The notes beneath the pieces were generated by a model that saw only the letters and a program-made list of their open reading frames with translations, was not told the DNA's origin and ran no database searches. The translations under genes and the position numbers were made by a program. Positions 9,001 through 64,000 of a DNA stretch of 64,000 nucleotides are shown here, one piece after another. Every line of letters starts with the position of its first letter. Within the stretch, counting starts at the first letter, position 1. The DNA is from Saccoglossus kowalevskii (Eukaryota > Hemichordata > Enteropneusta > Harrimaniidae): NCBI RefSeq assembly GCF_000003605.2, contig NW_003116453.1, positions 789,683 to 853,682 on the forward strand, given 5' to 3'.

Positions 9001-10638
9001 TGACGGTTAGAGTTAGAATTAGGGGTGGGTTACAAAAGAAACTTTTTCCAAAATATATATTATCAGAGGTACATTACTTAGTATTTATTTGGATACTCTG
9101 ATACTATACTATGCAATACCTGTGTCAAGGGGCATATCCCACAAAATTACTATTCTCATGCCCCTGTGCTGGTAACCAGACCCCAGCCTAGCTGCAGTTC
9201 TGTAGCTCTGCACCAGCAAAATCCAGAGCTACAGAACTGCGGCTAACCCCAGCCCAACTTTCTCCAATAGAGGGGTGGGGGGTAACCTTTGGAATGTGTG
9301 TGATTATACCAGATAAACAATCCAAGCAAAGTTAATCGCAACTTGTTTATTCATGAAATGAAATGAACTAGCCATGCCCATGGAAAGTAATATCACCCCC
9401 AATATCACGTTCCATACCTAGCTGCGGTTCCGTAGCTCTTTGGTGCGGGGGACGGTCGATTCGTCCCAAATCACATTCGTCCCAAGTCGATTCGTCCCAC
9501 AAGTTGATTCGTCCCAAGTCGATTCGTCCCACAAGTTAATTCGTCCCAAAGTCGATTCGTCCCACAAGTTGATTCGTCCCAAAGTCGATTCGTCCCACAA
9601 GTCAATTCGTCAGATTTAAGGTTAGCCCACTACTAACTCGCCAAATAAGATTTCTAGACATCTCGACCCAAAAATGTCTCAACCCAAGACACTTCGACCC
9701 AAATTGGACATCTCGACCCAGACACCCAGGGCATCGTTGCGCCATTTTGTTTTTGCCGACGTTATATACAAATACACCTTACCTACAACGCTGAGTTATT
9801 AGTTAATAAATACAAATACACCGTACAAGTTATTAGTCAATAAATACAAATACACCTTCGTGCAACGTAGAGTTATTAGTTAATAAATACAAATACACCG
9901 GACATTCAACGTACAAGTTATTAGTTAATAAATACAAATACACCGTTCACGCAACGTGGAGTTATTAGTTAGCGTGTCAGTAGCAGTTGGCATAGAAATC
10001 GACCCTGTTCAAGATCGTAATGCTGACTAAAAATTTAAAAAATGGACGAATGTGAATTGGGACGAATGTGAAATGGGACGAATGTGAATTGGGACGAATC
10101 GACTCGTGGGACGAATGTGAATTGTGACGAATCGACTTGTGGGACGAATGTGTTGGGACGAAAGTGAATTGGGACGAATTGACTGTGAATCTTTGGTGCG
10201 ACCTACAATCGAATTTCGCCCTAACAATTTCATTTGGACGTCTTTTTTTTAATTTTGTTGTTGTACGTCGAACATATGGGCCGGCCAGAGTCAGTCACGT
10301 AAATAATGCGGTCGGCAACATAAGGCTATGATTCCACAGCTAGTTCCATACCTAGCCCTGCGTACAGTGCTGTGTGTAAGGGGACGCGTTTGGTTGATAG
10401 ATGTTCCCACCACATGTAGTTCCATACCCTGCCTCAGTGCCTGACCAAATGTTGGTCATCGACCTCTGCCCCTCGACTCGAACACGGCCCTCGGATGAAG
10501 AGCTGAACGAACTTTATACCCCCCCCCCCCTAAAATTCACTTCCTTAATATTAGCACAAATGTTGGAAACTATTCACGTGTTTTTTTGAATAACGAAATG
10601 CGTGAGGTGACACCTTACCAAATCGACTCTGAAGTCAT
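907..10638 (-). CDS. ICE2: ICE2 / NARG2 homologue, little elongation complex subunit 2 (5' seven exons; 3' part outside window)
   Basis: ICE2 is a subunit of the little elongation complex, which with ICE1 and ELL supports RNA polymerase II transcription of small nuclear RNA genes in the nucleus. Exons, in coding order on the minus strand: 10619-10638 (ATG at 10638), 6948-7082, 6153-6357, 4106-4225, 2500-2637, 1591-1770 and 907-1054. All junctions are GT-AG and the phases chain without a break, giving about 316 residues before the frame leaves the window. Recognition rests on matches to vertebrate ICE2 from memory: a Trp-Asp junction then FFSED (human WDIS..TFFSRE), FPYPRFSNL (human VPYPRFSRF), HCPEDYNF (human KCAQDYN), and INNHPPYYTEQWEIPV (human LNNHGPTYKEQWEIPV) in exon 7. 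The conserved NARG2 C-terminal domain must be encoded left of the window. Exon 1 has only 20 coding bases and is separated by a 3.5-kb intron. The gene is divergent from tra2. Confidence 0.93.
1831..1909 (+). repeat. Dispersed repeat family A, copy 1
   Basis: About 80 bp starting TCATTAAAATATTACTTATT and ending in CTAATAGAGCATAC. It aligns with 5329-5408 in the same orientation and with 4271-4353 in the opposite orientation. All three copies lie in ICE2 introns. The class is unknown; the even length and lack of coding content suggest a MITE or SINE remnant. Confidence 0.65.
3064..3285. other. ICE2 intron 5 sequence around a weak unidentified open frame
   Basis: Within the ICE2 intron between exons 4 and 5 (2638-4105). 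A minus-strand open frame of 73 codons spans this stretch, which is more GC-balanced than its surroundings. It shows no recognisable domain and its splice context is poor. It may be a remnant of a repeat; I would not call it a gene. Confidence 0.3.
3623..3819. mobile_element. MITE with TA target duplication (Tc1/mariner-type)
   Basis: A 197-bp non-coding element. The ends form a terminal inverted repeat: left CTATAGACACAACAAACCC, right (reverse complement) CTATTGGCACAACAAACCC, then ATT in both. The inverted similarity continues inward through an AT-rich part, for about 55 bp in all. TA dinucleotides flank both ends (3621-3622 and 3820-3821), as expected for TA-targeting Tc1/mariner elements. 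It lies in an ICE2 intron. Confidence 0.85.
4271..4353 (-). repeat. Dispersed repeat family A, copy 3 (inverted)
   Basis: Reverse complement of this stretch reads ATTAAAATACGACTTATTTT and ends in AATAGAGCAAATT, matching the copies at 1831-1909 and 5329-5408. Together with the 5.3-kb copy it makes a loose inverted pair in the ICE2 introns. Confidence 0.65.
5329..5408 (+). repeat. Dispersed repeat family A, copy 2
   Basis: Begins ATCATTAAAATATGACTTAT and ends with CTAATAGAGCAAATG. It is closest to the inverted copy at 4271-4353, including the shared ATTTACGTAAG core. ICE2 intron. Confidence 0.65.
5600..5673 (-). repeat. Dispersed repeat family C, inverted partner of 7372-7462
   Basis: The reverse complement carries GATAAAACAGGTTTGATGGT, CATTAAACATGTCAAGTGGC and CATTA. 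The same string with small indels is at 7372-7462 on the plus strand, so the two form an inverted pair 1.7 kb apart that flanks ICE2 exons 2 and 3. Confidence 0.7.
5985..6014. repeat. (AAT)n microsatellite
   Basis: About nine AAT triplets followed by two AAAT steps, directly beyond the donor side of ICE2 exon 3. Read on the minus strand it gives the poly-isoleucine tail of a spurious read-through frame. Confidence 0.9.
6480..6590 (+). repeat. Dispersed repeat family B, copy 1
   Basis: Carries the family core GTGCAGACTATAAACAGGAC, then TATTTTGTGAATTTGTGAT. Related copies are at 22235-22320 (inverted) and 48185-48285. All three also share an upstream GGCTATTTTTG and an AATCTT block, so this is an interspersed repeat of at least 100 bp. 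Confidence 0.75.
7372..7462 (+). repeat. Dispersed repeat family C, copy on plus strand
   Basis: Contains TGATAAAACAGGTTTGATGA and TCAAGTGGCCATTAACGCTG. It is the inverted partner of 5600-5673 and lies in ICE2 intron 1. Confidence 0.7.
7463..8826. other. ICE2 intron 1, AT-rich, nothing recognised
   Basis: No coding exon that chains in phase with ICE2 exons 1 and 2 is seen here, and none is needed because exon 1 (10619-10638) joins exon 2 (6948-7082) directly in frame. No repeat of note apart from short AT runs. Confidence 0.55.
8827..8880 (-). repeat. LINE-like 3' tail remnant
   Basis: On the minus strand this reads as a tail with GCAATAAAGATTCTATTCTA, the (ATTCT)n-type end seen on many CR1/L2-clade LINE 3' ends. 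Only the tail is recognisable; no reverse transcriptase is next to it. Confidence 0.4.
9189..9245. repeat. 22-bp perfect-looking hairpin
   Basis: Inverted repeat with arms TAGCTGCAGTTCTGTAGCTC plus TG (9189-9210) and its complement at 9224-9245, differing at one base, around a loop of about 13 bases. A related string, CTAGCTGCGGTTCCGTAGCT, recurs at 9419, beside the foldback element, so the hairpin probably belongs to the same family. Confidence 0.8.
9455..10186. mobile_element. Foldback-type element with tandem-repeat arms
   Basis: The left arm (about 9455-9611) is a tandem array of GTCGATTCGTCCCACAAG-like units. The right arm (about 10043-10186) is built of the complementary units (GGGACGAATCGACTTGTG), so the arms form a long imperfect inverted repeat. 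The spacer (9612-10042) holds its own small array: five copies of GTTATTAGTTAATAAATAC at spacings of 34 to 45 bp, plus several CGACCCAA motifs. No transposase is encoded. Foldback elements are known for arms made of short tandem repeats; that family call is inference. It sits in ICE2 intron 1. Confidence 0.7.
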
Positions 10639-11092: not shown

Positions 11093-14000
11093 ATGAGTGA
11101 CATCGACGATAAATACGACAAAAAGGTAGGTCTTAAATGTGACGTGCAGCTTATAAGATTGGATTCCAAACGTGAGAAAAATTAGGAAAATTCGTCCCTG
11201 CTGCACGCGGTTGATAATGATGTTGTCCAGTTAAACCTTTTGTTAAACATTTGCACCACCCAGCTTCACTATATTGCAATGTAATTTAATAAATAAATTC
11301 GTTAGCGTAATATTTATGTTTCGTTTCACCATTTTAACCGAGCTAAACGTCGTATTAAAGAAACTTTTTTGCGTCCTTCAGGTAAAACGTGATGGTCGAG
11401 GCAATTCCCGGTCACGCTCAGCCTCTCGTTCCCGTTCTCCAGTTTCGAGGTCTCCGACGCGTTCAAGAAGCAGGTCTCGCTCAAGATCCTACTCTAGATC
11501 GCCATCCAGATCACGATCTCGCTCAGTGGATCGTAAACGGCGATACACGAGATCAAGGTCGAGGTCCAGAACGCCAAGACATATTAGAAGTAGAAGGCGA
11601 CGGTAAGTAAAGTCTCCCCGTACAAAATTGATATAATTAGCACAGTACATGAAAACTACCGTGGTAGTATATGGACCAGAATTGGCACGTTTAGTTACCT
11701 ATCCCCTCCCCACTAAATCAGTTTTATAAATCTAGGTAAAGTTTTAGCCTCTTTTCCAAAATATACCAAGAAACCTGCGTTTATGTCCGGTTCTGGATAG
11801 TTCTGCTGAAAGCAACCTGATGACAAAGGGTGCCAGTTGGATGTTTATTAAGTTAGCATTGTTTTGTGTTGATCACATTAATGTTGTGAGGTATGGATAA
11901 CAGGCTGTGCAGGACAAATTTTGTGAAGACAAATAGGTATGCTAAGTAGAACATCCAGGGTTAACAACCATCGCAACAAATTTAAAATATCTGTTCTACA
12001 AGGCATGTATCTATCTAAAAAACAATTGATTGGGCGAATAATGATTAAACTAAACTATTGTGTAGTTTTATATTGTGTTTTTATTTGGTTACAAGATTAT
12101 CTGTACTAAAATGTTAGTTTTTGTGAAATGCGAATTTTGAAATGTTTGGAACAAGGCTGAAATAAAGATAGCTGCAAAGGATTAAATTTAATTTTGAGTG
12201 TAGAGTATATTTAGCTTCAAGTAACTACCATTTCAGGTTTTGACTGGAAATCCATCACTAATGCCAACAAAATTCTATGCGTTTTCTTTCATGTGTTCGT
12301 GTATTGACTGTCTACCACTAAATAGCTCTCGAAGGTGAGTTGTGTATATTTATTGGTTAACAATTGAATGGTTTGAGGTTCTGGTCGCTGACCTTTTTAG
12401 AAGTTTTAGTTTCTTGGTGGTTATGAGAGCATTATGCATACATAAAAACTAGGTCATCTCAAATTGACATTTTTTTCCAGCTTTATTAGCATATACAGTC
12501 TTCTCCCGAGAGAAAGAGTATTGGCTAAGTTGCATAACAATGTTAACCAACTGTATTGTATTCAATGTCATGCTTAATAGACTCTATTCTTTATATAACA
12601 GTTGGGAAACCCTGGGGAGACCCCTGATGTATGCATAACATTCTTTTACAAATTTTCTGTAAACTCCAGTTCATACTGGATGCCTTTTAAATTATGATTA
12701 TGTTCAGTCCTAAACTGCAACTGATCATTGGAAATAGTAAAATGTTTTTTGTTATTGTTATAATCATAGATTCTCTTTGTCTCCTCGGAGTAGAGAGTAT
12801 CGCAGTCATAGCAGATCACCGATGTCAAACAGAAGAAGACATATTGGAAGTCGGGTATGTTCGGGCAGACGGGAAGTTTCTCTTCTACCACCAGTACATA
12901 AACAATTGTCATAATACATGTATAAGCCAGCAGTAAAATAGAAAAAAAAATAACATTACAAATAGTTGCCCAAGTTTTGTACAAAAGCACATGAGTGATA
13001 TGCATGATTCTGTTGTGCAGGAAAATCCAGTTTGCAACTCTAGTCTGGGGATATTTGGTCTGAGTTTATACACTACTGAAAGGGATTTGAGGGAAGTGTA
13101 TGGAAGATATGGAACCATTACTCATGCCAAAGTTGTCTATGATCAACAGGTAAACAATTACTCAATTTGCTCTTATCTTGCTGTGTAGGCCAATCCTGAA
13201 ACCAACAATTGTCTTGGAGTATTTGGTTTGAGCCTATCAACTACTGAAAGGGAACTGAGAGAGGCTTTTGGAAGATATGGTCCAATTGCGAACATTAATG
13301 TGGTCTATGATCACCAGGTAAAATATCTAATCATTTTTTGGACGTCTTTGAAGAATTCTCTTGCATGTCTAATGAATATTATTGCAGTGTTACTTTTGTG
13401 CTTATTTGCATTTCTGTTTGTCTTCAGAGTGGAAGATCTCGTGGATTTGCTTTTCTTTCATATGAATCTGAGGAAGATGCAAGAGAGGTAGGTGATTATG
13501 GAGTTCACAAACCCATTTGAACTTCTTCAGAAATTCAATAAAGCTGTCGTTTTTTTTTTCTGGCCATTGCAACCATGAAATTAGTGTGTTAAGACCAATG
13601 CATGGCAAGTACTTAGATTTCTGGGGGCTTATTGAAATTGTAAAGTGTTGAAGGGCAACAAGACTTTAACATTTGGACCCCTCGATTATACTTAATATCC
13701 AATTGCATGCAACAAGAAAAATGGTAATCATTAGTTCAACTATGTCGACACTTCGTCAATACTGTATTTTGAAGTACATCCTACTATAAAGGTGCATTTA
13801 CCCCATATTGGTAGTGTGCTTTTAATTAAGTAACCCCACTTAAATTATCAGTCATTTCTTCTGTTATTAGGCCAAAGATCGTACTAATGGAATGGAAATA
13901 GATGGTCGTCGAATTCGTGTTGATTATTCCATCACTAAAAGGGCACATACCCCAACTCCTGGCATCTATATGGGAAGACCAACATAGTAAGTGTTCAGAT

Positions 14001-15483
14001 GTTGAAAAATACACGCACAAGATAGATTGTCACAAGGTGTTTCAGTTCATGAATTTGTAAATAATCATCTTGCCATGTGAACAGAACCATCACATATTTA
14101 CATTTGTTGAAAGAAAAAAACTTGTGAACTCCCGGACGGTTGCACTTTGACTAAAGCCGCTCCATCTTAGTCAAGGTACAAGGTCTGATTTACAATAGTT
14201 TACAAAATAAGGCCAGTTATGTAGCCATTATACTTATTAGCCATACAAATAAAATTGTTATAAAGACTAGATTTACAGAAATAAGTATGTATCCTGAATG
14301 ATAGGTCACATGACCAAAAATAGTAAAAGGTCCACAAATTAAACTGTAAAGTGGATTCTTAAAAATGAAAACCTAAACAAGAGTGGCATATGGTGTTCTC
14401 CATAGACTGAATTCTAGGATATTATTTTTAGTGAACATTGGTTACCGTAATTACTATAAAACAATTGCAGTAAAAGTATATCACATTCTATTGTATTCAG
14501 ATTAACCGTCTCTGGTTGATAATCATATGGGATGAACTTTGGATATAACAGACATTTTGGATGGTGCTTGTTGCACTAGTTTTTATGAACCTCTTTAAAT
14601 TTATTTTTTTAGTCCAAAAAGAGGTGGCTATGACAGAGACCCTCCTTATGAGAGAGAACGAAGCTCTTACAGAGACAGAGACCGTTACAGACGATCTCCT
14701 TCCCCATATTACAGACGATCACCATCACCCTACTACAGACGACGATATTCTCGATCACGTTCCAGGTCTTACTCTAGATCTCCACGTAAGTAGTCTTCAA
14801 CTTTATTCCCAACTTGTTTAAAGATTGTTCAGCTAAGTCAAGTTTTTAAAATATACACCTGTGTATGGTTCACCTGATAACAATAATGAACAAATACTGA
14901 TTTATTGGTTTCTGGTTAGTGATTTGATTAGTGCACACCACTCGTGTTGAACTAAAATTAAGATATACTGCCCTGCAGTATAAAAAAATGATTCTTGACT
15001 CAAACATATGGTAATTTTACTTATTTAATAATGTTGTAATTGATGACCAGTTGGCATTTTATTTAAATATTTGTTTGAATATTTGATCTGGTAAGTGACA
15101 TAACTAAGTACTTGATGGTTTCACCATAGGCAATTTTCTTGTTACTGCGAGATCCTGCGTTGTGTGCAATCATATGTAAAAACGAGACAAAGAAAAATCG
15201 TAGTGGCATGGGATTCAATGCTATTTTTTGTGTATACTTAATCAAGCTATAAACATTCGATGGTCAATTTTGATAAAGAAAATTTATCTTGAGATCTCGC
15301 AGTAACAAAAAAATTCTGTTGAGTAACATTTGCTTCATAAAATTTAAAAAAAATAACTTTCTTACATACATACTGCTGCACATTTAAAATGCCTAATTTT
15401 AAGCCACAGCATTATTCATTGTTCTACCAGTTATTCTTATTTGCGCTTTATGCTTTCTTTTACCTACTATAGGACGATATTAA
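11093..15483 (+). CDS. tra2: Transformer-2 (Tra2) SR-like splicing regulator
   Basis: Tra2 is a nuclear RNA-binding protein that binds GAA-rich exonic enhancers and promotes exon inclusion. Exons: 11093-11125, 11382-11602, 12770-12854, then 13021-13149 (4a) or 13189-13317 (4b), 13428-13487, 13871-13986, 14613-14785, 15473-15483. Every junction is GT-AG and in phase; with one copy of exon 4 the product is 275 residues, close to human TRA2B (288). Residues about 14-113 form the first RS domain, ending [13 protein letters not shown] as in human. The RRM follows, with RNP2 (LGIFGL in 4a, LGVFGL in 4b) and RNP1 RGFAFLSY with both aromatic residues (about 163 and 165). Next come the family linker [14 protein letters not shown], a second RS/Tyr-rich domain, and the typical C-terminal SPRRY. 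Exon 4 is duplicated (listed separately). Confidence 0.97.
12237..12334 (+). other. tra2: Candidate tra2 poison exon
   Basis: A 98-nt interval in the intron between tra2 exons 2 and 3, with a good acceptor (CTACCATTTCAG) and a near-consensus donor (GAAG followed by GTGAGT). Exon 2 ends two bases into a codon, so inclusion of this exon would give CGG TTT TGA, an immediate stop. Vertebrate TRA2 genes autoregulate through a stop-bearing cassette exon near the 5' end. This could be the counterpart by position, but it lacks the dense GAA motifs of the vertebrate exon. Confidence 0.4.
13021..13149 (+). other. tra2: tra2 exon 4a (RRM start, first copy)
   Basis: Codes 43 residues: the linker, beta1 with RNP2 LGIFGL, alpha1 ([14 protein letters not shown]) and beta2, ending VVYDQQ. 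It has an acceptor TTCTGTTGTGCAG and donor CAG/GTAAAC, starting and ending in phase 0. It is 129 nt, exactly as long as exon 4b, and 27 of the 43 residues are the same. Compared with human TRA2B it keeps [11 protein letters not shown] and VYDQQ but has lost the ANPxxN start. Confidence 0.9.
13189..13317 (+). other. tra2: tra2 exon 4b (RRM start, second copy)
   Basis: Also 43 codons in phase 0, with acceptor CTTGCTGTGTAG and donor CAG/GTAAAA. It keeps the family start [14 protein letters not shown] better than 4a but has changed the alpha1 region ([16 protein letters not shown]) and ends VVYDHQ. The intron between 4a and 4b is 13150-13188, 39 nt. Using both exons would keep the frame but put two copies of beta1-alpha1-beta2 in one RRM, so either/or use is more plausible. 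Confidence 0.9.
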
Positions 15484-26695: not shown

Positions 26696-26888
26696 ATACT
26701 AGTACTAACGATGCAATACTAATACTAACGATGCAATACTAGTACTAACGATGCAATACTAGTACTAACGATGCAATACTAGTACTAACGATGCAATACT
26801 AATACTAACGATGCAATACTAGTACTAACGATGCAATACTAGTACTAACGATGCAATACTAGTACTAACGATGCAATACTAGTATTGA
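26696..26888. repeat. 20-bp tandem repeat, about 9.5 copies
   Basis: Unit ACTAGTACTAACGATGCAAT, nearly perfect; the only common variant changes ACTAGT to ACTAAT. It lies upstream of the pburs-1 signal-peptide exon. Confidence 0.97.
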
Positions 26889-27319: not shown

Positions 27320-27893
27320 AAGAATAATACATCATGTCACTATATTGGTACATTATGGCATTATATAAATATATCACGACATTATACAAATACATCATGA
27401 TATTATACAAATACATCATATCATTATATTGATACATTATGGCATTATAAAATGCATCCCGGCATTATATAAATATAACATGACATTATACAAATATATC
27501 ATGACATTATACAAATACATCATGACATTATACAAATATATCATGACATTATACAAATATATCATGACATTATACAAATATATCATGACATTATACAAAT
27601 ATATCATGACATTATACAAATACATCATGACATTATACAAATACATCACGACATTATACAAATACATCATGACATTATACAAATACATCATGACATTATA
27701 CAAATATATCATGACATTATACAAATATATCACGACATTATACAAATACATCATGACATTATACAAATACATCATGACATTATACAAATACATCATGACA
27801 TTATACAAATATATCATGACATTATACAAATATATCATGACATTATACAAATATATCACGACATTATACAAATACATCATGACATTATACAAA
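27320..27893. repeat. 21-bp tandem repeat, about 26 copies
   Basis: Unit ACATTATACAAATACATCAT plus G, with CATC/TATC variants. Because 21 is a multiple of three and the unit lacks stops in one frame of each strand, it creates long open frames on both strands (plus MTLYKYI repeated, minus MIYLYNV repeated). These are artefacts of the repeat. Confidence 0.97.
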
Positions 27894-28445
27894 CACACCT
27901 CAAATGATGTACCCTCTAGCTGCATGTTTGTATCCGCTCTAACAATGTAGTAGACTGATGTATATTTCATATCAAACTTAATCACACTTGCTTTTCCGGG
28001 TGCCCACATGAATAAGAAAGAATAATCATTGTATAATATGATACTTGTTGGGAAGTAATTCAAAGTTGAAATTAAACTGGGCCACATTTGGAGGGTAGAA
28101 TCGAATCTGGAACATTCCGTTTATCTGATAAAAGGGAACGTGCACTTTCTTATCAATGCGAATGATAATGCACATGACACCACGTGACCAGGCGACGAAT
28201 GACAATAGGGTAGACAGCGGTTGGCGCTGATAACGATGAAGAATATAACTACATGTGTGCCAAAATGATCATATAGTGTGTCTCTTCGGCGTACTCACCA
28301 CTTTAGGTAAAGTCCACTGAAATTGTTTAGCAGTAGGGGAATATTGCAGCTCGTTGACAAACACATTCTCATTTGTTTTAATCTTCATATTGTTTTCCAT
28401 TTCGTGTCTTTTCAGATTTCGATATCATCTTTTCTTCTGTTTGCA

Positions 28446-31400
28446 ATGAACGTTCTAATCTTCCTTGCCTGCTGCAGCGCCTCTATACTCATGCGATCGA
28501 GGGCGCAACAAGAAGACAACTGTTTTCCGGGAACTACTGACTTAGTGATCCACCATGAGGTAGTAGACCAAGAAACGGGATTCACAAAGTACTGCTCTGG
28601 TATGGCTGTTCTTAAAAAATGCGAAGGATCGTGTATTTCCCAGGTAACGCCGAGTGTGAGATATGGATTTTCCAAGGTAAGCATCACTCATAAAAATACA
28701 TATTTGTTATTATATATTGTTTTTTATTTGACTAAAGTAGTTAAGAGTATCATGTGTATTGGAAATGAAACCGCACGTTAAGATTAACTTTAAAATGAAA
28801 GCATAAAATGTCACCATCTTCTCGTTACCGACGTATAACACATAACGTGGATATTAAGTTTTAGGCAATCAGAAAATCACCATATAAACAATCTACAGTT
28901 CTGTATGGACCGCAGTCATCGCATGTATCTCCCCATATGTCACCCAGAATCAGCGAGAAACCATATCATACAGAATATTGTTTTCAGATTGTAGCAATTC
29001 AAGTTCGGGTAATGAATGGTAGACTGTTATCTCAAGTTCAGTAAATGCTAATGTTCTTTCCGCGTCCTTGGACGAGCTTATATATTACCCAATATTGTAG
29101 GTTTATCACTACCCCCCCCCCCCCGTTCATAGATGCATGTGATAAATCCTCGGCATTTTCTCTAAGAACAAAACAAAATGTTTCAACTGCACTACACAAT
29201 CAGTGCATTTATAAGCTTGCTATAGTACTAGTCTAATCATCGGATTGCCTTGTATTGTAACGTACATGTTAATTAGCTAGCGTCGTTTCCCAAGAGCCAT
29301 CACACATGGCGCGATCACAAAGAGTTTCCCGTATACATGGAAGACACATGCAGCGTAAACCCATTAATATTTACAGACGCTAAAACGCGATAAATTGCCC
29401 GGGAGAGTATACACCATGTTGGGTCCATTATTCATTAGAAAAAAAATCACCCAATGTTTCTCAAATGCAACAAAATTAGAATTTATGTACATTTGACACG
29501 TACTCATGTATATGAACGATACTGATATGAGTGTATGCATAGAGAATTCAAACCAGGGTGTTGGAAATGTGATAAACTTGTATTTGATCCAAATAAAATT
29601 TATATCATAATCTCACGTGTACTTTCTTTTCTCGCCTGTGCTATATTATAGCAATCATGTATATGCACGCTTGTCTTATTATTCTTATCATTTTGTTATC
29701 TCGCAGGAAAATTAACTAGAGTATATTCAATGCAATATTAACGTGCATGTTTTGTCTTTGGAAAATGCATTTTTGCGATTTAGCTGAAAAGACAACATTT
29801 TCGTCGAGTTGCGTATGCGTATAACTTATTATTAATTATATCTATTAATGTGATTCATTATACTAATTAACATATGCAGATTACCTACTCATTTATTTTA
29901 CTCATTAACATATGCGGATTACATACTCAATTATTTCACTCATTAACATATACAGCTCACATACTCATTTATTTTACTCATTAACATATGCAGATTACAT
30001 ACTCATTTATTTTACTCATTAACATATGCAGATTACATACTCATTTATTTCACTCATTAACATATACAGCTCACATACTCATTTAGTTTACTCATTAACA
30101 TATACAGCTCACATACTCATTTATTTTACTCTTTAACATATGCAGATTATATATTCATTTATTTTACTCATTAACATATGCAGATTACATACTCATTTAT
30201 TTCACTCATTAACATATGCAGCTCACATACTCATTGATTTTACTCATTAACATACGCAGATTACATACTCATTTATTTTACTCATTAACATATGCAGATT
30301 ACATACTCATTTATTTTACTCATTAACATATACAGCTCACATACTCATTTAGTTTACTCATTAACATATGCAGATTATATATTCATTTATTTTACTCATT
30401 AACATATGCAGATTACATACTCATTTATTTCACTCATTAACATATGCAGCTCACATACTCATTGATTTTACTCATTAACATACGCAGATTACATACTCAT
30501 TTATTTTACTCATTAACATATGCAGATTACATACTCATTTATTTTACTCATTAACATATACAGCTCACATACTCATTTAGTTTACTCATTAACATATGCA
30601 GATTACATACTCATTTATTTTACTCATTAACATATGCCGATTACATACTCATTTATTTTACTAATTAACATATGCATATTACATACTCATTTATTTTACT
30701 AATTAACATATGCATATTACATACTCATTTATTTTACTCATTAACATATGCATATTACATACTCATTTATTTTACTAATTAACATATGCAGATTACATAC
30801 TCAATTATTTTACTCATTAACATATGCAGATTACATACTCATTTATTTTACTTAATACATATTTAGACTACATACTCATTTATTTTACTAATTAACATAT
30901 GCAGATTACATACTCAATTATTTTATTCATTAACATATGCAGATTACATACTCATTTATTTTACTTAATACATATTTAGACTACATACTCATTTATTACA
31001 ATAATTAACATATGCAGATTATATACTCATTTATTTTACTCATTAACATATACAGCTCACATACTCATTTATTTTACTCATTAACATATGCAGATTATAT
31101 ACTCATTTATTTTACTTAATACATATTTGGACTACATACTCATTTATTACAATAATTAACATATGCAGATTATATACTCATTTATTTTACTCATTAACAT
31201 ATGCAGATTACATACTCATGTATTTTACTCATTAACATATACAGATTACATACTCATTTATTTTACTCATTAACATATACAGCTCACATACTCATTTATT
31301 TTACTCATTAACATATGCAGATTACATACTCATTTATTTTACTTAATACATATTTAGACTACATAATCATTTCACCAATTACCATATATATTACATAATC

Positions 31401-37881: not shown

Positions 37882-39069
37882 CGAGGGGCGTTCAATAAGT
37901 AATGCCCCTGACCCATTTCCCATAGCAGGAGATTAATGAAACTTGGCACAGTTATTAGTCTTTCTCTACATAGGAACTACCCAGAGTAAGTTATGCATTT
38001 CTTCCATCGTTTGATGTAGCTCTGGACACCGTTATTGTAGAACACCCCAGGCTGGTCCTCCAACCACGTCGTGAGTTCAGGAATCAAGGCTGTATCATCT
38101 GGGAAACGCTTTCCCTTCAAAAACAACTTCATGGCTGGGAAGAGATGAAAGTCAGAGGGTGCAAGGTCAGGAGGGTAAGGGGTGGGGGAGGATTTCATAG
38201 CCACACGCCCGTGCTTCTGATCTGGCGACATGCGAGTTGTGGACCGGAGCGCTGTCCTGCAGGAGGAGGATACCTTTGCTGATCTTGCCCCGCCCCTTGA
38301 TTTTGCTAGCTTCTCTTAATTTCATCAAACGTGAAGCGTAATAGGCTCCTGTAATTGTGGTACCTTTTGCTAGGGAATTTGTCATCAGTACTTTGTCCTG
38401 GTCCCAGAAGACTGTGAGCATGACTTTGCCAGCGGAGGGCTGTACCCTTTCCTTCTTTGGAGGTGGTGAGTCCAAGTGCTTCCACTGCATTGACCCAAGT
38501 TTTTGAAAAACTTTGACTCATCTTCTTGGCACATCTCCAAATTCATCCCCGAGCAGCCTGGAAATCCATCTGGCAGACACCTTATGCATATGCAAATGAT
38601 CGCAGATGCTGTACTAATCTTGACCTCTTGGGCTATTTTGCGAACAGTAATACGTCGATCCTCCAAAATGGCTGCCTCAACTTGACGGACAGATGCCTCA
38701 TCAATGGCAGAACAGGGACGACCAGGTCTGGAAGCTGTTTTCACAGACTTCCGGCCATGTTTGAATTCACAATGCCAGTGTTTTACAAGGTCATATGATG
38801 ATCATCACCATAAGTTTCTTTCATTTCATCAAAAGTCTCCTTTGGTGTGCGTCCTTTCAAATACAAAAACCGGACCACTGCGCGACACTCAACTGGCACT
38901 ATTTCACACCTGACTCAGTTCAAACACCTGTAAATAGGAAACCACAATTAGTTCAGAGCTGTTGTTTGCAACATAACCCATAGAGATGTAAATCATTACA
39001 CATGCAAACTTTCATCTAGATCAGACAACTGGAAGTGGGTCAGGGTCATTATTTATTGAACGCCGCTCG
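37882..39069 (-). mobile_element. Mariner transposon, decayed
   Basis: Complete 1188-bp element with TA duplications at 37880-37881 and 39070-39071. The terminal inverted repeats are 39 bp with 4 mismatches and begin CGAGGGGCGTTCAATAAGTA (left) and CGAGCGGCGTTCAATAAATA (right). The transposase lies on the minus strand, roughly 38930 down to 37977. Segments: an HTH part (CRAVVRFLYLKGRTPKETF, then ILEDRRITVRKIAQEV), VMLTVFWD with the first catalytic Asp, LLLQDSAPVH with the second, and YPPDLAPSDFHLF with the third. The spacing across one shift fits D,D34D. At least three frameshifts and stops break the reading frame, so this copy cannot make transposase. Confidence 0.95.
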
Positions 39070-49097: not shown

Positions 49098-50865
49098 GAT
49101 GAGCTAAAACTTTGTATGAACCACCAAAAGTTCCAAGGTGTGAAGAGCTAAAACTATGAATGTATTGCCATAATGTTCACATGGTGACGAGCTAAAACTT
49201 TGTAATAAACGCCAAAATGTTTCAAAGTGTGATGAGCAAAAACTTCGTATGAACCGCCAAAACGTTCAAAATTGTGTTGAGCTAAAACTTTGAATTAACA
49301 ACCAAAATGTTAAAAATGGTGATGAGCTAAAACTTTGAATTAACAATCAAAATGTTCAAAATGGTGATGAGCTAAAACTTTGTATTAACAACCAAAAGTT
49401 CAAAATGGTGATGAAATAAAACTATGTATTAACAACCAAAAGTGTGAACCAAAAGTTCCAAAGTGTGATAAGCTAAAACTTTGTATTAACAACCAAAATG
49501 TTCAAAATGGTGATAAGCTAAAACTACGTATTAACAACCAAAATGTCCCAAAGTGTGGTGAGCTAAAACTTTGTATTAACACCAAAATGTTCCAAAGTGT
49601 GATGAGCTAAAACTTTGTATTAACAACCAAAATGTTCCAAAGTGTGATAAGCTAAAACTTTGTATTAACACCAAAATGTTCCAAAGTGTGATAAGCTCAA
49701 ACTTTGTATTAACAACCAAAATGTTCAAAATGGTGATAAGCTAAAACTTTGTATTAACACCAAAATGTTCCAAAGTGTGGTGAGCTAAAACTTTGTATTA
49801 ACACCAAAATGTTCAAAATGGTGACAAGCTAAAACTTTGTATTAACAACCAAAATGTTCAAAATGGTGATAAGCTAAAACTTTGTATTAACACCAAAATG
49901 TTCCAAAGTGTGGTGAGCTAAAACTTTGTATGAACACCAAAATGTTCCAAAGTGTGATAAGCTAAAACTTTGTATTAACAACCAAAATGTTCAAAATGGT
50001 GATAAGCTAAAACTTTGTATGAACCACCAAAATGTTCCAAAGTGTGGTGAGCTAAAACTTTGTATTAACAACCAAAATGTTCAAAATGGTGATAAGCTAA
50101 AACTTTGTATTAACACCAAAATGTTCCAAAGTGTGGTGAGCTAAAACTTTGTATTAAACACCAAAATGTTCCAAAGTGTGATAAGCTAAAACTTTGTATT
50201 AACACCAAAATGTTCCAAAGTGTGATGAGCTAAAACTTTGTATTAACAACCAAAATGTTCCAAAGTGTGATAAGCTAAAACTTTGTATTAACACCAAAAT
50301 GTTCCAAAGTGTGATAAGCTAAAACTTTGTATTAACAACCAAAATGTTCCAAAGTGTGGTGAGCTAAAACTTTGTATTAACACCAAAATGTTCCAAAGTG
50401 TTATGAGCTAAAACTTTGTATTAACACCAAAATGTTCCAAAGTGTGGTGAGCTAAAACTTTGTATTAACAACCAAAATGTTCCAAAGTGTGGTGAGCTAA
50501 AACTTTGTATTAACAACCAAAATGTTCCAAAGTGTGGTGAGCTAAAACTTTGTATTAACACCAAAATGTTCCAAAGTGTGATGAGCTAAAACTTTGTATT
50601 AACAACCAAAATGTTCCAAAGTGTGGTGAGCTAAAACTTTGTATAAACACCAAAATGTTCCAAAGTGTGATAAGCTAAAACTTTGTATTAACACCAAAAT
50701 GTTCCAAAGTGTGATGAGCTAAAACTTTGTATTAACAACCAAAATGTTCCAAAGTGTGGTGAGCTAAAACTTTGTATTAACACCAAAATGTTCCAAAGTG
50801 TGATAAGCTAAAACTTTGTATGAATCGCCAAAATGTTCAAATTGGTGAAGAGCTAAAGCTATGTA
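49098..50865. repeat. 44/45-bp minisatellite, about 40 copies
   Basis: Unit CCAAAATGTTCCAAAGTGTG, then ATAAGCTAAAACTTTGTATTAACA(A). Variants are TTCCAAAGTGTGG and TTCAAAATGGTGAT, and CACC (44 bp) versus CAACC (45 bp). They are mixed along the array. Copies at the left edge are more diverged than those from about 49,480 on. It lies between pburs-2 and burs. Confidence 0.96.
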
Positions 50866-62929: not shown

Positions 62930-64000
62930 ACACTACAAATAAACTCCCAGTAGACAAAAATGCATTTCTCACACTACAACTATACATTCCCCATCGTTAA
63001 CAATGTACGGGACTCACATTACAATAAAAAAAAAAACCCATAAACGACAATATACTTGATGCAATTAAACTCCCATAGACAATGTGTAGGTCTCACACTA
63101 CAATTAAACACTCCAACGATAACAATATACATGACTCACACTACAATCAAATTCCCATAGACGACAATATAAATGACTGACATTACAAATAAACTCCCCG
63201 TAGATGAGATGCGCATGTCTCACACTACAATTAAATCCCCTATAGATAACATCATACAGGACTCACACTACAATCAAATTCCCCAAAGACGACAATGTAC
63301 AGCACTGACATTACAAATAAACTCCCCGTAGATGAGATGCGCATATCTCACACTACAATAAAATTCCCCATAGATAACATCATACAGGACTCACACTACA
63401 ATTAAATTCCCCATAGATAACATCATACAGGACTCACACTACAATCAAATTCCCCAAAGACGACAATGTACAGCACTGACATTACAAATAAACTCCCCGT
63501 AGATGAGATGCGCATATCTCACACTACAATACAATTCCCCATAGATGACATCATACAGGACTCACACTACAATCAAATTCCCCAAAGACGACAATGTACA
63601 GCACTGACATTACAAATAAACTCCCCGTAGATGAGATGCGCATATCTCACACTACAATAAAATTCCTCATAGATAACATCATACAGGACTCACACTACAA
63701 TAAAATTCCCCATAGATAACATCATACAGGACTCACACTACAATTAAATTCCCCACAGATAACATCATACAGGACTCACACTACAATCAAATTCCCCAAA
63801 GACGACAATGTACAGCACTGACATTACAAATAAACTCCCCGTAGATGAGATGCGCATATCTCACACTACAATAAAATTCCTCATAGATAACATCATACAG
63901 GACTCACACTACAATAAAATTCCCCATAGATAACATCAGACAGGACTCACACTACAATTAAATTCCCCATAGATAACATCATACAGGACTCACACTACAA
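62930..64000. repeat. 43-bp minisatellite with multi-unit periodicity
   Basis: Units of 42-43 bp sharing CTCACACTACAAT.AAATTCC. Three subtypes (CATAGATAACATCATACAGG, CAAAGACGACAATGTACAGC, and ATGAGATGCGCATATCTCAC) follow one another in recurrent orders. The AGCACTGACATTAC marker recurs at 63301, 63472, 63600 and 63814, steps of four, three and five units. The array runs past the window end and lies in an intron of the unidentified minus-strand gene. Confidence 0.95.

Follow-up and report, generated by a model that had tools for sequence, protein, structure and literature searches.

The first RRM exon of the one transformer-2 (tra2) gene found in the acorn worm Saccoglossus kowalevskii is present twice in tandem, and we consider it likely that the two copies have been kept as a mutually exclusive pair that gives rise to differing Tra2 forms. 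The gene is complete within the window (the whole stretch of 64,000 nucleotides that was analyzed), where it lies on the + strand with exons spanning 11093-15483 and a domain order of RS1-RRM-RS2. Its features are as follows.

11093..11125, + strand: tra2 exon 1, with the ATG start, an open frame and a GT donor
11382..11602, + strand: tra2 exon 2, RS1 domain
12770..12854, + strand: tra2 exon 3, end of RS1, phase 2 to 0
13021..13149, + strand: tra2 exon 4a, 129 nt, linker/RNP2/alpha1/beta2, version a
13150..13188, + strand: intron between 4a and 4b, 39 nt, GTAAAC...GTGTAG, 12 residues and then an in-frame TAG if retained
13175, + strand: yTnAy branch-point candidate, the sole one within the 39-nt intron, from a consensus scan
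13189..13317, + strand: tra2 exon 4b, 129 nt, linker/RNP2/alpha1/beta2, version b
13428..13487, + strand: tra2 exon 5, RNP1
13871..13986, + strand: tra2 exon 6, end of the RRM and linker
14613..14785, + strand: tra2 exon 7, RS2 domain
15473..15483, + strand: tra2 exon 8, final coding bases and TAA

With either 4a or 4b, exons 1-8 encode a product of 275 residues consisting of RS1, one RRM, a linker and RS2, with a single, terminal stop; in the translation an RS-rich region flanks the RRM on either side, and there is a single RRM_1 match. A search of solved structures with the 4b-form protein placed four human TRA2B entries (2RRA, 2RRB, 2KXN and 2CQC) at the top of 302 matches, the best 60 of which were listed (best E 1.7e-40). 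Human TRA2B and acorn worm Tra2 have the same RRM, and their alignment shows the adjoining SITKR.HT stretch in both; the human protein also shares the remainder of the linker and the domain order RS1-RRM-RS2. The acorn worm protein keeps the RNP2 Phe and may bind AGAA/GAA RNA.

DNA and protein searches of the 572-Mb genome, which comprises 4830 contigs, found a single tra2 locus. No second tra2 locus or allelic contig was found genome-wide, and at the DNA level the segment 13000-13500 matched only itself. The protein search returned 12 matches, eight of which lay outside the tra2 locus and belonged to other RRM genes (28 to 46% identity), and no third copy of the exon was among the 12. Thus, no paralogue was seen that could supply a second Tra2 form. 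In searches for relatives, viral contigs gave eight pattern matches, none of them a relative, and phages gave one distant match (31%).

The exon that encodes the RRM entry, RNP2, alpha-1 and beta-2 is a real tandem duplication. The original prediction of two adjacent 129-nt, phase-0 exons with intact splice sites and 27 of 43 residues in common proved correct: copies 4a (13021-13149) and 4b (13189-13317) are of that length, are in phase 0 at both ends, are free of stops, and are preceded by AG and followed by GT, and they share 91 of 129 nucleotides as well as the 27 residues. The pair, a repeat with a period of 168 (144 nt at 72%), is the longest direct repeat in 12855-13480. A degenerate core pattern, which was written from 4a and 4b themselves, occurs at two places in the window, these being 4a and 4b, and had no matches in 100 shuffles. 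A whole-genome search with the 4b-form protein recovered exon 4a at E 3.9e-10, and Pfam RRM_1 is matched by both the whole 4a-form protein (E 2.3e-19, 69.5 bits) and the whole 4b-form protein (E 4.8e-21, 74.8 bits). It might be argued that the pair is an artefact of assembly, for example two haplotypes set end to end, as draft assemblies do show tandem false duplications. However, 38 of the 129 bases are not the same in the two copies and synonymous divergence is near 1, far beyond allelic difference, and the flanking introns match little beyond the exons (12/30 and 13/30), and we regard an artefact as extremely improbable.

Exons 4a and 4b both look constrained, as judged from one genome with human TRA2B as the outgroup. 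The comparison of 4a with 4b gave a dN of 0.24 and a dS of 1.2 by NG86, and a dN of 0.22 and a dS of 0.93 by LWL85. Exon 4a is identical to human TRA2B at 28 of 43 residues and 4b at 30 of 43. At the 16 positions where the copies differ, human TRA2B agrees with 4a at four, with 4b at six and with neither at six, such that the copy-specific changes relative to the human protein number six versus four and the two copies have diverged about equally. Neither copy has outpaced the other, as a dead or decaying exon would. When 38 random changes were placed on 4b, the frame stayed open in 35% of 100000 trials, and it stayed open with at least 27/43 identity in 0.075% of them. Neutral decay passed the same test in 0.005% of 20000 trials at 0.6 per site, 0.64% at 0.4 and 7.5% at 0.3; given the last value, for the shortest branch tried, the argument for constraint depends on dS being high.

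An alternative to the use of both copies is that one of them, likelier 4a in view of its weaker acceptor, survives as a relic whose frame happens to be open or which is rarely spliced, in which case the gene would effectively encode one Tra2. Exon 4a has the lower Pfam score, its acceptor is poorer in pyrimidines (fraction of 0.59, versus 0.71 for 4b), and the 80 nt upstream of it lack a yTnAy branch site; moreover, an open frame by itself is weak evidence, given how often one survived the random changes described above. Yet the exon 3 acceptor has the same pyrimidine fraction as that of 4a (0.59), the donor scores of the two copies are similar (3.95 for 4a and 4.03 for 4b), and both copies have retained their splice sites. 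The low dN/dS over a high dS and the near-equal divergence from human TRA2B likewise argue against decay, and at four positions 4a has retained the human residue where 4b has not. A relic is therefore unlikely in our judgment. The more pyrimidine-rich acceptor of 4b may favor 4b as the default form.

If both copies are used, how might the resulting proteins differ? The RNP2 Phe, which had been predicted to be retained, is found in 4a and 4b alike, and both forms should thus bind RNA. The 16 differing residues are at 112, 115, 116, 118, 119, 122, 128, 133, 137, 138, 143, 145-148 and 153, by human TRA2B numbering. These positions presumably fall in the N-terminal extension (112-119), beta-1 (122), loop 1 and alpha-1 (128-138), loop 2 (143), beta-2 (145-148) and the start of loop 3 (153). 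The claim that each copy has kept different positions of the family holds against human TRA2B: where the two differ, 4a keeps Y128, D133, V137 and Q153 of the human protein, and 4b keeps A112, C119, V122, F138, P143 and A145. It is plausible that the substitutions alter affinity, specificity or partners between the 4a and 4b forms.

Another question is by what mechanism the two exons would be kept apart. The reading frame affords no protection: each exon, at 129 nt, is a multiple of three, and the frame stays open whether both are included or both are skipped. The spacer between the exons is 39 nt, whereas the other seven introns in the tra2 coding region are 256, 1167, 166, 110, 383, 626 and 687 nt. 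Lengths of other introns in the same genome were gauged from intervals between consecutive exon matches. The shortest estimate was 108 nt among 61 intervals for myosin/kinesin and 114 nt among 18 usable intervals for p450 (from 58 of 100 rows); for two more p450 pairs the estimate was negative, and these look to be frame breaks or degenerate copies rather than introns. None of the 79 intervals sampled elsewhere in the genome was near 39 nt, the shortest being about 108 nt, in a sample that is small, consists mostly of estimated lengths and was taken with a profile that could read through tiny introns. Tiny introns were sought in three of the 124 myosin/kinesin rows, those with at least four internal stops, and none was found. 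Three short introns elsewhere for which the splice sites were located are 111, 115 and 124 nt.

Because the spacer is far below the length of the other introns sampled, splicing of 4a to 4b should be sterically blocked, and the double-inclusion product 3-4a-4b-5 would be mechanically unlikely. A distance of less than 50 nt between donor and branch point has been used as the criterion for potential steric interference, and 57 human clusters (9%) fall within it (PMC5740500). The tra2 pair falls within it as well, given that the entire spacer is 39 nt, with a branch point that is a candidate. A consensus scan placed a yTnAy at 13175, between the 4a donor (25 nt away) and exon 4b (14 nt away), and another candidate inside exon 4a, at 13124. 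We propose that exon 3 would be joined to either 4a or 4b and that the chosen exon would then be joined to exon 5. The branch point serving 4b may lie within the spacer, where the best candidate is the one at 13175, or within exon 4a, and binding of U1 at the 4a donor and of U2 at the nearby branch point would be mutually incompatible, which would prevent 4a from being joined to 4b. Ready joining of 4a to 4b is thus not to be expected. Some animals, such as nematodes, splice introns of near 40 nt, and a length of 39 nt is therefore no absolute bar to splicing. The original prediction of a mutually exclusive pair draws sequence support from the equal length and phase of the copies, the signs of selection on both and the very short spacer; the pairing itself stands, and mutually exclusive use through steric constraint is well supported but unproven.

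Retention of the spacer would lead to a different outcome. A retained spacer adds 12 residues after 4a followed by an in-frame TAG at 13186-13188, such that a spacer left in the mRNA would be expected to halt translation inside the RRM. Neither the 39-nt length of the spacer nor its terminal in-frame TAG figured in the original prediction. It is conceivable that the pair also serves as an autoregulatory poison switch, in which abundant Tra2 causes 4a, the spacer and 4b to be included as one 297-nt, stop-bearing exon and the mRNA to decay. The TAG would suit such a role, and vertebrate Tra2b autoregulates through a poison exon (PMC11791180). Stops in retained introns are common in general, however, and GAA is not clearly denser in 4a and 4b than in exons 3, 5 and 6 while AGAA is absent. 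We consider a poison switch very unlikely. A comparison of 4a with 4b showed no bias in Tra2 sites (GAA, five and five; AGAA, none and none). Pairing between the introns that flank the pair, introns 3 and 4b, was no better than in shuffled sequences (233/500 as good), and inverted repeats around the exon pair are weak.

A further alternative is that splicing treats the 39-nt spacer as a mini-intron, with inclusion of both exons as the norm, which would give a longer protein with the first half of the RRM doubled. The frame is kept on double inclusion, and the joined protein matches RRM_1 at 95.2 bits (best stretch 167-235), above either single form. No similar length occurs among the 79 sampled intervals, though, and a second copy would leave the protein with an orphan beta1-alpha1-beta2, a Tra2 of a kind not met in the part of the open-licence literature that was covered. 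We think this arrangement very improbable. Under the preferred reading of a mutually exclusive pair, the duplication suggests that one tra2 gene makes two Tra2 protein forms, which would have the RS domains and RNP1 in common, would differ at 16 of 43 positions, and would probably not have the same affinity for purine-rich RNA or the same partners.

Tandem exons that are used alternatively are known from another splicing factor. Exons Ab and 3 of U2AF1, which specify U2AF35a and U2AF35b, are duplicated 67-nt exons that cover RNP2 and a helix and are used alternatively (PMC5224494). Like tra2, U2AF1 encodes a splicing factor with an RS domain and an RRM-type domain (UHM) that is partly encoded by duplicated exons of equal length. 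In U2AF1, as described in the same source, seven residues differ, and inclusion or omission of both exons leads to a stop and decay (PMC5224494). In the acorn worm gene, by contrast, 16 of 43 residues differ, the exons have a length divisible by three and lie 39 nt apart, and exclusivity of the U2AF1 type, in which double inclusion shifts the frame and leads to decay, does not hold. Exon pairs in tropomyosin and actinin provide further comparison systems beside OGDH. For exons 4a and 4b of OGDH, a distant branch point is described as responsible (PMC7969005), whereas in tra2 it is the whole intron that is only 39 nt.

Human TRA2B has isoforms without RS1. The alternative exon of human TRA2B that is described in PMC11791180 is a poison exon, and alternative RRM exons like those of acorn worm tra2 were not met for the human gene in the literature searched. 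The mutually exclusive exons that appear in PMC8858584 belong to fruitless, not to tra2. The earlier statement that no tra2 gene with such a layout has been described agrees with our search of the open-licence literature, which was partial in coverage. Mutually exclusive tandem exons are thus a known kind of arrangement, of which tra2 would be a new example within the literature covered; the genome annotation may already list the isoforms.

Tra2 regulates splicing in animals that range from flies to mammals, the latter with two tra2 genes. If the acorn worm lineage gains two Tra2 proteins by exchanging half of the RNA-binding domain, this would be another way to diversify a core splicing regulator. 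Exons 4a and 4b would also offer a natural pair with which to ask which residues besides the conserved aromatic determine RNA specificity, and a compact way to test whether intron length imposes exclusivity. A bolder and more doubtful scenario, which we offer tentatively, is that the lone acorn worm tra2 gene makes two Tra2s that differ in their choice of RNA and are switched by tissue or sex, with the spacer stop silencing failed choices. If true, one tiny intron would both enforce exclusivity and tune the dose of Tra2.

The window also contains a number of repeats. Long tandem arrays with units of 20-45 bases and up to 40 copies occupy 1-625, 26696-26884, 27326-27897, 29853-31372, 49098-50865 and 63088-64000. 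Two other arrays, at 9455-9611 and 10044-10179, have units (ATTCGTCCCA and GGACGAAT, respectively) that by eye look mutually reverse-complementary. They lie some 900 to 1600 bases upstream of tra2, on either side of other repeats at 9766-9971. Judged by eye, these two arrays are possibly the ends of an inverted-repeat element. A 138-aa frame on the - strand at 38385-38801 has a sub-threshold match to HTH_32 (25 bits, with a cut-off of 33.7) and is perhaps a transposase remnant. Rfam and tRNA scans of the window returned nothing.

The mitochondrial contig of the assembly (C4830, 17037 bases) was also inspected. With genes named by eye, cox1 is on the strand opposite cox2, nad1, nad2, cob and nad5. 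Between the rRNA region and cox1, nad2 comes before nad1, and the gene order is thus derived. Codons were read against conserved protein stretches, and on that basis TGA is Trp, ATA is Ile (cox1), AAA is Lys (nad1) and AGA is Ser. The ten gene stretches counted, a set that leaves out cox3, nad6 and atp8, contain no AGG. Table 3 of PMC3121625 gives ATA as Ile, AAA as Lys and AGA as Ser, with no AGG, for the S. kowalevskii mitochondrion and lists other codon combinations for echinoderms, Balanoglossus, Rhabdopleura, tunicates, vertebrates and cephalochordates. On this evidence the contig likely comes from an acorn worm close to Saccoglossus. The inverted cox1 had raised the possibility of a cephalochordate, which was rejected given that ATA is Ile. 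The same source describes the Saccoglossus mitochondrial gene order as derived (PMC3121625).
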